Assembly (NCBI GenBank): GCA_018240685.1
Contig: JAFEFG010000002.1
Span: 1 to 64,000, forward strand
Length of the DNA stretch: 64,000 nt
Reading direction: 5' to 3'
Source of the DNA: Pseudomonadota bacterium
Lineage (GTDB): Bacteria > Pseudomonadota > Alphaproteobacteria > Reyranellales > Reyranellaceae
In this document: positions 1,371 through 3,816 of the stretch, one piece after another
Layout: each line of letters opens with the position of its first letter
How positions within the stretch are numbered: the stretch's first letter is position 1
Made by a program: the position numbers and the translations under genes
Notes under the pieces: generated by a model
Seen by the model: only the letters and a program-made list of their open reading frames with translations
Database searches by the model: none
What the model was told of the DNA's origin: nothing

Positions 1371-2630
1371 TTACGTGGATGGCGGCCTCGGAACGTGTCG
1401 ACCCCTGAGATAGTTCAACCCCACCGCTGCCGCCGCGAGCCCCGCCGTTGCCGCCACGGCGATCGCCCATCTGGGGCCGAAGGTGTTGGCGACCCAGCCG
1501 ACGAAGGGGGCGCCGATCGGGGTGCCGCCGAGCGCCACGGCCAGGCGGATGGCGATGACGCGGCCGCGCATCGCCGGCTCGGTGGTGAGCTGCATCAGCC
1601 CGTTCGAGGAATTGGTGATGGTGAGGGCGGCGATGCCGGTGACGACGAGGGCGGCGCCGAACAGCCAGTAGCCGGGCGCGAGGGCGGCGCAGGCGAGGCC
1701 GACGCCGAAGATCGCCGAGCCCACGACCAGCAGGGAGAAGCGCGGCGCCTCGCGGCCCGCCGCCAGCAGGGCGCCGACGATGGTGCCGGCCGCCATCATC
1801 GAGCTGAGCAGGCCGAACTCGTAGGCGCCGACCTTGAATACGCTGACGGCCATGGTCGAGATGAAGATCGGGAAGTTCAGCCCGAAGGTTCCGATCAGGA
1901 ACAGCATCACCACGATGGCCATCAGGTCGGGGCGGCCGCGGACATAGCGGAAGCCCTCGATCACGCTGCCCGGCCTGCGCAGGGCGCGATGGCTGGGATG
2001 GAGATCGGCGACGCGCAGCAGGTTGAGCGAGGCGAGCACGGCGAGGAAGGAGAGGCCGTTCAGCAGGAAGGCCCAGCCGGTCCCGACCGCGGCGATGCAC
2101 AGCCCGGCTGCCGCCGGCCCGACCATGCGGCCGGCGTTGAACGAGGTCGAGTTCAGCGCCACGGCGTTCGCCAGGTACCTGTCGCCCACCAGCTCGGTGA
2201 CGAAGGTCTGGCGCGCCGGGGCGTCGAAGGCGGCAGCGCAGCCGAACAGGAAGGCGAAGACGTAGACGTGCCAGAGCTGGACCACGCCGGTCACGGTGAG
2301 GAGGCCGAGCACCAGCGCCAGCCCGCCCATGACGGCCTGCGTCACCATCAGGAGCTTGCGGCGGTCGTAGTGGTCGGCGGCGAACCCCGTCCACGGCAGC
2401 AGCAGGAACTGCGGGCCGAACTGCAGCGCCATCACGAAGCCGACCGCGGTCGCGTCGTGGTGGGTGAGCTCGGTCAGGACCAGCCAGTCCTGGGCCGTGC
2501 GCTGCATCCACGTCCCGATGTTGGAGACGACCGCGCCGCCGGCCCAGATGCGGTAGTTGGGGAAGCGCAGCGAGCGGAACGGGCTGCGTTCCAGCCGGCC
2601 GCCGGGTTCCGTTGACGGCGTACTGGTCAC
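1371..2630 (-). CDS. MFS transporter (MFS_3/DHA3 type)
   Basis: Twelve-helix major facilitator protein of 419 residues, resembling the MFS_3/EntS branch that exports drugs or siderophores. Seen directly: an N-terminus with FPNYRIWAGGAVVSNIGTWMQ, typical of this branch, regular hydrophobic segments throughout, and the loop 2-3 motif FAADHYDRRKLL, a variant of the MFS motif A. Its ATG overlaps the stop of the upstream isochorismatase-like gene by 4 bases (ATGA), so the two are translationally coupled. With the MarR gene further upstream it forms a three-gene operon typical of locally regulated efflux. The exported compound is unknown. Confidence 0.85.
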   Translation of the reverse strand: MTSTPSTEPGGRLERSPFRSLRFPNYRIWAGGAVVSNIGTWMQRTAQDWLVLTELTHHDATAVGFVMALQFGPQFLLLPWTGFAADHYDRRKLLMVTQAVMGGLALVLGLLTVTGVVQLWHVYVFAFLFGCAAAFDAPARQTFVTELVGDRYLANAVALNSTSFNAGRMVGPAAAGLCIAAVGTGWAFLLNGLSFLAVLASLNLLRVADLHPSHRALRRPGSVIEGFRYVRGRPDLMAIVVMLFLIGTFGLNFPIFISTMAVSVFKVGAYEFGLLSSMMAAGTIVGALLAAGREAPRFSLLVVGSAIFGVGLACAALAPGYWLFGAALVVTGIAALTITNSSNGLMQLTTEPAMRGRVIAIRLAVALGGTPIGAPFVGWVANTFGPRWAIAVAATAGLAAAAVGLNYLRGRHVPRPPST

Positions 2631-3190
2631 TGCACCGCGCCGTCGAGCAGGGCGATGATCTCGCGCGTGGTGCCGGTCTCGCCCAGCCGCGGGAAGATGC
2701 GGCCGATGCTGTTGGCATGCGCATCGGCGTTGAGGTCGGCCATGGCGTCGGTGGCGAGCGTGACGTTGAAGCCGAGCTCATGGGCCTGGCGCGCGGTCGA
2801 CTCGACGCCGGCGCTGGTGGAGACGCCCACCACCACGACCTGGGTGACGCCCTGCGCCTTCAGGTGCTCGGCCAGCCCGGTGTTCGTGAAGGCGCCCCAG
2901 GTGCGCTTGGTGACGAGATGGTCCTGCGGCTGCTGGTCGAGCTCGGGGATGAGATCGGTCCAGCCGGCGGGGAAGCCGCGGGCGGCCATGCCCTGTTCGC
3001 TGCGGCCGGGCGCGAGGCCCGCGACATTGACCAGCACGACCGGCAGGTGCCGCTGCCGGAAGGCATCGAGCAGCGCCACCGTATTGGCCACCACGCCGTC
3101 GATCAGGTGCGCGGCCGGCAGGGCGACGATGCCCTTCTGCAGGTCGACGACGATCAGGGCGGTCTTGGGATCGAGAGCGGTCACGGGCAT
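2627..3190 (-). CDS. Isochorismatase-fold hydrolase lacking the catalytic Cys
   Basis: Isochorismatase-superfamily protein of 187 residues. The Asp (IVVDLQ, D16) and Lys (K95) of the usual Asp-Lys-Cys triad are present, but the Cys position reads Gly (GVSTSAGVESTAR, about residue 128). The ATG at 3190 is used because conservation begins there; a longer frame upstream runs into the marR gene. Enzymes of this fold without Cys (EntB, PhzD) hydrolyse vinyl ethers, whereas Cys members are amidases, so a non-amidase role is likely, though this is inference. It lies between marR (65 bases upstream) and the MFS gene (4-base overlap), suggesting it modifies the exported or sensed compound. Confidence 0.85.
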   Translation of the reverse strand: MPVTALDPKTALIVVDLQKGIVALPAAHLIDGVVANTVALLDAFRQRHLPVVLVNVAGLAPGRSEQGMAARGFPAGWTDLIPELDQQPQDHLVTKRTWGAFTNTGLAEHLKAQGVTQVVVVGVSTSAGVESTARQAHELGFNVTLATDAMADLNADAHANSIGRIFPRLGETGTTREIIALLDGAVQ

Positions 3191-3255: not shown

Positions 3256-3699
3256 TCACGTTTCGCCGAGGCGCCGGATCACGGCGAGGGCGGCGGCCAG
3301 CGTGCGGCGGTCCTCGGGATCGAGCCGGGCCATGGCGCCGGACAGCCATTCCCGCTTGAGCAGGCGGCGCCGGCGCCGGATCTCGGCGCCTTTCGCGGTC
3401 AGGGCGAACAGGAATTGCCGCCCGTCGGTCGGGTGGGGCCGGCGTTCGACGAGGCCGTCCCGTTCCAGCCCCGCCAGGGTCACGCCCATCGACTGCGGCT
3501 TGACCGCTTCCGCGCGCGCGAGATCGGCGGTGGTCATGGCGCCGTTCCTGCCGAGCCGCGCCAGGACAACCGCCTGCGACCAGGTGAGCCCGCTGGGATT
3601 CGATTCCGCGCGCAGCCGGCGCAGGAGCTGCCCCGTTACCTGCAGCAGCTCCTCGACGACCGCTTCGGCCGGTCCGTCCCGATCAGGATGCTTGGCCAT
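3256..3699 (-). CDS. MarR family transcriptional regulator
   Basis: Winged-helix repressor of 147 residues. A central MarR domain is visible: LTWSQAVVLARLG, the recognition region AEAVKPQSMGVTLAGLERDGLVERRPHP split over helices 3-4, then the wing with D-G-R before FALTAKG. It probably autoregulates its operon with the downstream isochorismatase-like and MFS genes, because a 38-bp perfect-arm palindrome starts 14 bases upstream of its start codon. The start is weakly supported by a ribosome site, but the frame has no better one. The inducing ligand is unknown. Confidence 0.88.
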   Translation of the reverse strand: MAKHPDRDGPAEAVVEELLQVTGQLLRRLRAESNPSGLTWSQAVVLARLGRNGAMTTADLARAEAVKPQSMGVTLAGLERDGLVERRPHPTDGRQFLFALTAKGAEIRRRRRLLKREWLSGAMARLDPEDRRTLAAALAVIRRLGET

Positions 3700-3712
3700 G
3701 GCGGGTATTTAT

Positions 3713-3750
3713 GGATTGGAAGGCAAACTTGCAAGTTTATCTTCCAATCC
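3713..3750. promoter_or_regulatory. 38-bp palindrome, probable MarR operator
   Basis: Nested inverted repeat centred at 3731/3732. An inner core AAACTTGCAAGTTT is flanked, after two unpaired bases on each side, by perfect 10-base arms GGATTGGAAG and CTTCCAATCC. It lies 14 bases upstream of the MarR start codon, a position that would block transcription of the operon when bound. The inner core has the size and TTGCAA centre common in MarR boxes. Binding is inferred. Confidence 0.75.
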
Positions 3751-3816
3751 GGTCGCGAGCCGGGGAGGACGGCCCCAGGTTTTCGGGGGGAAAGGCTGGG
3801 GCGGCCGCCCGGCCCG

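Follow-up and report, generated by a model that had tools for sequence, protein, structure and literature searches.

In M. tuberculosis, the regulator Rv2887 binds a 30-bp duplex as two dimers, 15 bp to each and on nearly opposite faces of the DNA, an arrangement likened in the source to the QacR and ST1710 complexes (PMC5526998). For SCO3205, the excerpted account gives contacts over about 22 bp for one dimer, with 24-mer footprints and a 22-mer in the crystal, and calls this consistent with other MarR-DNA complexes (PMC3737563). The locus described here lies in a 64-kb window, by which we mean the whole 64,000-nucleotide stretch of DNA analysed. In it, a marR gene with its ATG at 3697-3699 heads a marR/isochorismatase-fold hydrolase/MFS operon, with all three genes on the minus strand and a long palindrome just upstream:

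3713..3750, minus strand: putative operator, a 38-bp palindrome (sequence, repeat finder, simulations, conservation upstream of MarR relatives)
3256..3699, minus strand: marR, a 147-aa MarR-family regulator with the winged-helix MarR domain (PF01047, 3.2e-14; PF12802, 3.5e-13)
2627..3190, minus strand: isochorismatase-fold hydrolase, YecD-like, with Gly at the usual catalytic-Cys position (PF00857, 9.6e-43)
1371..2630, minus strand: MFS transporter, MFS_3/MFS_1, whose start codon overlaps the hydrolase gene's end (PF05977, 1.9e-47)

The palindrome reads GGATTGGAAG, GC, AAACTTG, CAAGTTT, AT and CTTCCAATCC, its centre lying between AAACTTG and CAAGTTT. Seventeen of its 19 pairs match; the arms found by the repeat finder (3713-3731 and 3732-3750, 19 nt each) are 89% complementary, and the mismatched positions are two per side (3723-3724 and 3739-3740). 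As the original prediction stated, the inner 14 bp (3725-3738) and the outer 10-nt arms pair perfectly. It was also right about the close spacing to marR, except that the real gap is 13 bases (3700-3712), the 14 it gave being a difference between coordinates. No other 38-bp palindrome in the window matches so many pairs, the runner-up having 15. Seventeen pairs were never reached in 60 first-order Markov simulations of 64 kb (maxima of 14 in 30, 15 in 23 and 16 in 7), nor in 4000 simulations of the 117-bp intergenic stretch (maximum 16, in 2). In its own 5.04-Mb genome (97% complete), the inner 14-mer occurs at a single place with 0 or 1 mismatch and at 2 further places with 2 mismatches. A separate, imperfect inverted repeat at 3772-3802 has 13-nt arms (85%) and a 5-nt gap; it stands between the operator and the end of the acyltransferase gene that lies upstream, and was not called by the terminator scan.

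The nearest NCBIfam model for the regulator is the Rv0880 family, at 92.5 bits and under its cut-off of 220, and its relatives are patchily spread. One scan of species genomes gave 27 MarR-relative loci, and genome searches were positive for 6 of 61 relatives at 1e-10, 3 of 65 genomes of the same genus at 1e-20, 3 of 385 class genomes at 1e-25, 14 of 398 phylum genomes at 1e-20 and, for three families at 1e-30, 73 of 349, 4 of 341 and 5 of 248, these counts including the window's own genome where it is a member of the set. Such a spread suggests horizontal transfer. Thirty of the 67 relatives belong to the family with 73 matches, from which 30 loci were fetched. The conservation set comprised 68 MarR genes at least 49% identical (67 relatives plus the window); 17 relatives under 49% identity were left out of the conservation counts and scored separately, and L001, L031, L032, L042 and L043 were excluded because they duplicate the window or L004. 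For the alignment, each upstream region was placed with its centre at the best fit to ACTTGCAAGT in the 260 bp preceding the MarR match; L037, L051 and L052 are mis-centred in the alignment, their units lying elsewhere. Removal of regions at least 80% alike left 43 regions, which takes out shared ancestry only in part, and the sequences represent fewer events than their number.

The dyad, sought upstream of homologous operons, was found there. Element-bearing loci span Alpha-, Beta- and Gammaproteobacteria, among them Enhydrobacter and Pleomorphomonas (Alphaproteobacteria), Pandoraea (Betaproteobacteria) and Luteibacter (Gammaproteobacteria); L014 and L075 carry the same operator. The palindromic site just upstream of its own marR gene, probably overlapping the promoter, is conserved with that gene in three proteobacterial classes, which supports well the predicted operator of a self-regulated marR operon. 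In relation to the centre, CTT stands at -4 to -2 in 68/68 regions and AAG at +2 to +4 in 66/68 (CAG in the other 2), and the outer half-sites are MAG in 64/68 and CTK in 65/68; the inner counts arise partly by construction, from centring on the core, and the outer counts do not. Information peaks in an unbroken block around position 0, AAACTTGCAAGTTT, and the outer AG/CT letters vary hardly more than this core. Symmetric conservation extends to ±19 (T-16 in 38/43, A+16 in 29/43, A-19 in 32/43, T+19 in 30/43), where the promoter-side position may also serve the -10 element. The outer arms vary between genomes yet tend toward symmetry: the paired fraction at distances 13-20 is 0.529, vs 0.379 once arms are exchanged at random among genomes (z 6.8). 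Distances 7-10, 12-15 and 18 lie singly above the shuffles (uncorrected p < 0.05), and covariation at distances 5, 6, 11, 16, 17, 19 and 20 does not, some of these positions being too conserved to covary.

The genes that follow marR are shared to differing extents. Among the 67 relatives at or above 49% identity, 48 have a hydrolase homologue at most 120 bp downstream of marR. Downstream within the fetched DNA, at least 10 of the 67 carry an MFS homologue of the same type as in the window, a lower bound, as many fetched loci are short. When 20 downstream ORFs of 17 relatives were scanned (15 of these relatives being among the 19 without a near hydrolase), MFS_1 was found in 4, PBP in 1 and an enoyl-reductase in 1; the other 14 gave no Pfam match, several of them probably not being genes. 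At four loci (L017, L021, L046 and L085), an MFS_1 transporter of 459-471 aa directly follows marR, the operator is of the same type, and a hydrolase homologue within 120 bp was not detected.

Asp-Lys-Cys is the defining catalytic set of the cysteine hydrolases in the isochorismatase superfamily. In the hydrolase of the window, the catalytic Cys is absent: Gly128 aligns with the Cys of 3kl2, and Gly occupies that position in 57/57 homologues of the fetched loci, a count that possibly includes one locus twice, from two sources, as L014 and L075. Asp16 is kept in 56/56 covered homologues and Lys95 in 57/57. True isochorismatases, too, are known to lack this catalytic Cys. The nearest solved structures are 3txy (6.3e-36) and E. 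coli YecD (1j2r, 2.6e-28), which has the fold in common and likewise has Gly at the cysteine position; the comparison covers these two features, and the present gene belongs to an operon that opens with marR and also carries an MFS gene. "Cysteine hydrolase" would be a misnomer for the product of 2627-3190. The gene content fits the detoxification module originally proposed, but this protein and its homologues carry Gly where the catalytic Cys would usually be.

Inside the palindrome, a shorter palindromic unit, MAG-N5-CTK, is repeated in tandem at a 13-bp pitch, with a 2-bp linker between copies:

3733..3743, minus strand: unit 1 of the tandem, AAG-ATAAA-CTT (pattern scoring)
3731..3732, minus strand: 2-bp linker GC between the units, the centre of the whole palindrome (alignment, linker scan)
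3720..3730, minus strand: unit 2 of the tandem, AAG-TTTGC-CTT (pattern scoring)

When all offsets within 60 bp were scored, 41 of the 43 regions had a MAG-N5-CTK beginning at -12 and 41 had one beginning at +1, counts whose inner halves were helped by centring. It occurs at the next 13-bp steps in 4 regions (-25) and 2 regions (+14) and elsewhere in 3 in all, the mean at other offsets being 0.03. Two units with a 2-bp linker are present in 62/67 relatives under the strict pattern, failing in L014, L026, L027, L065 and L075, and in 10/17 diverged relatives under a relaxed pattern that makes no use of centring, failing in 7; linkers of 0, 1 and 3-11 bp were found in none of the 67 (strict) or the 17 (relaxed). 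Markov versions of these diverged regions (17 regions, 4,006 bases) showed the relaxed pattern in 0.01 regions on average and in at most 1. Diverged relatives have the linker and the central TTGCAA altered (CTTTGTAG, CTTTACAG, CTACACAG) and the units kept, the outcome that a junction at the centre would lead one to expect; in several of them the middle has lost its symmetry. The usual copy number is two, and nine loci have three units, in phase in L020, L021, L023, L025, L047, L053, L087 and L088 and, with the relaxed pattern, in L037. The N5 spacers within a unit are not symmetric. Since a tandem of palindromes is itself palindromic overall, the nesting described originally is explained: two symmetric sites of dimer size lie inside one longer palindrome, each of which would be the site of one dimer.

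In the window's own genome (97% complete assembly), the two-unit pattern occurs with 0 mismatches only at the window and with 1 mismatch at one place, which fits a local autoregulator. When up to 2 mismatches were allowed, MAG-N5-CTTGCAAG-N5-CTK matched 36 places in this genome, vs 58 for the reversed control, and a wider regulon is not claimed. Among 41 genomes, the pattern ACTTGCAAGTNNNCNTNCNA is found in 3, namely at the window, in G011 (an Enhydrobacter-like genome) and in G043 (L041). The L041 sequence (contig 67, 4325-4344), ACTTGCAAGTTTGCTTGCAA, is operator-like and belongs to a genome of the same class in which no close MarR relative was detected. A second MarR group, about 36-42% identical (L034, L037, L048, L049 and L051-L055), neighbours homologous hydrolase and/or MFS genes; 8 of its 9 loci follow the same 13-bp unit plan, with different linkers, and L055 does not match.

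The position of the element relative to the start codon bears on what it could do in RNA. Two promoter-like hexamers can be placed on the alignment:

3729..3734, minus strand: -35-like hexamer TTGCAA at the operator centre (putative, from the alignment, with a 17-bp spacer)
3706..3711, minus strand: -10-like hexamer TAAATA, weak, TATGAT in many relatives (putative, from alignment columns +21 to +26)

In the -10-like columns, T21 is present in 57/68 and A22 in 59/68; a consensus promoter scan called no promoter at the operator. The ATG lies 31-34 nt from the operator centre in 57/68 genomes, 5-8 nt past the -10-like box, and some of the 11 outside this range owe their place there to an earlier GTG or TTG that the script chose. 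In 65/68, the stretch from +19 to the script-chosen start codon contains none of four Shine-Dalgarno-like 4-mers. Since the ATG sits close to the expected transcription start, the marR mRNA is most naturally read as leaderless, and the palindrome probably falls outside the transcript made from this promoter.

Together with the observed sequence, its retention alongside marR, its division into units and their fixed 13-bp pitch, these features suggest that the element is probably the autorepressor operator of the adjacent MarR, built from two tandem 11-bp dimer sites. In the mechanism we propose, two copies of a palindromic site, AAG-N5-CTT, joined by 2 bp, would each hold one MarR dimer, and the neighbouring dimers would lie on different faces of the DNA, offset by 13 bp. 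The bound dimers would cover the -35 and the spacer of the leaderless marR promoter and shut off marR, hydrolase and pump, and a ligand would free the repressor and turn the operon on. Two dimers are most strongly opposed by the central 14-mer: conservation peaks in this unbroken block, which a single dimer could read; asymmetric N5 spacers, pattern failures, the weak -10 of the window and the bias toward one family also count against the tandem model. One MarR dimer may instead sit on the central 14-bp palindrome, with the outer arms as secondary contacts (wings, DNA shape) and the three-unit loci as two such dimer sites. We regard this arrangement as rather unlikely. The information peak in the contiguous core AAACTTGCAAGTTT speaks for it, as does the single MarR dimer documented on a 22-24-bp autoregulatory site in the excerpted SCO3205 report (PMC3737563), but symmetric conservation reaches ±19, the outer AG/CT letters are nearly as fixed as the core, and diverged relatives drop the central symmetry while keeping the units. 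Conservation over about 38 bp, against about 22 bp per SCO3205 dimer, together with the two-dimer precedent of Rv2887, favours two dimers 13 bp apart. The two dimers of the original prediction are in this way plausible as side-by-side occupants of neighbouring units, and its two nested dyads are not retained; concentric binding was set aside by reasoning, as two dimers should be unable to share concentric dyads at once.

The original prediction also allowed the palindrome to double as an RNA hairpin in the marR leader, acting as attenuator or stability element. We consider an operator combined with such a hairpin very unlikely. Folded as RNA, the 38 nt reach -19 kcal/mol (z -6.05), as any such palindrome would, and G.T makes up 0.210 of the non-pairing cells against 0.182 in shuffles (sd 0.010), a slight excess. 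The excess for A.C is smaller (0.206 vs 0.192, sd 0.011), and the two are nearly equal in number, at 65 and 64 of 310 unpaired cells; pair types on their own do not settle the matter. A terminator-like site was not found at the operator by the scan, and the distance to the ATG would leave no room for a leader. The palindrome is placed upstream of the probable transcription start, which argues against a hairpin. Less likely still, in our estimate, is that the symmetry is a by-product of mutation (quasi-palindrome correction) or belongs to the site of another regulator and does not reflect MarR binding. Template switching could also make the arms covary between genomes as they do, but the element tracks marR in three classes, its distance from the start codon being almost constant and its pitch always the same, and a second full match was not found in the window's own genome. 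Two MarR dimers on tandem units remain our preferred reading.

Conservation with the gene makes this palindrome matter more than a lone palindrome would. A simple repeat rule replaces the nested dyad and predicts two dimers, a 13-bp phase and natural variants with three copies. It also supplies a candidate operator consensus for a MarR group of Alpha-, Beta- and Gammaproteobacteria that is often followed by a YecD-like hydrolase, and the natural two- and three-unit promoters offer material for measuring the effect of site number on induction. More tentatively, there may be a MarR subfamily whose operators are modular arrays, a 13-bp palindromic unit being repeated two or three times. On these arrays, dimers would stack cooperatively and helically over the -35 of a leaderless promoter. 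Copy number could then set the steepness or threshold of induction, and the half-sites (AAG/CTT vs CAG/CTG) could drift with the repressor.

A search of titles and abstract openings in the open-access literature, with subscription journals mostly outside its reach, found no account of this operator or of a tandem 13-bp architecture. In the excerpted report on SCO3205, pseudo-palindromic MarR sites also lie upstream of the regulator's own gene, but the 24-bp footprints are fitted as 1:1 binding, the consensus is TTnAAnnnTCAA, the two sites are separate, and a 13-bp tandem is not described (PMC3737563). The operator of QacR, a TetR-family protein, is similarly an elongated palindrome that controls an MFS pump, and according to the excerpted source it is bound by two dimers (PMC6018408); coming from a different protein family, QacR would work alike without being a member. 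Rv2887 (5hsm, 5.2e-10) is the third of eight solved chains matched by the present MarR at 1e-6. Like it, Rv2887 is a MarR-family repressor, and its two dimers share one short DNA; unlike the site described here, that of Rv2887 is GC-rich and only partly palindromic, with 15 bp per dimer and a proposed indirect readout, in the excerpted report (PMC5526998). Compared with it, the present operator has a sharply defined repeated unit, in 2-3 copies at a 13-bp pitch. A MarR autorepressor operator is a known kind of element, and what looks new is its modular 13-bp architecture.
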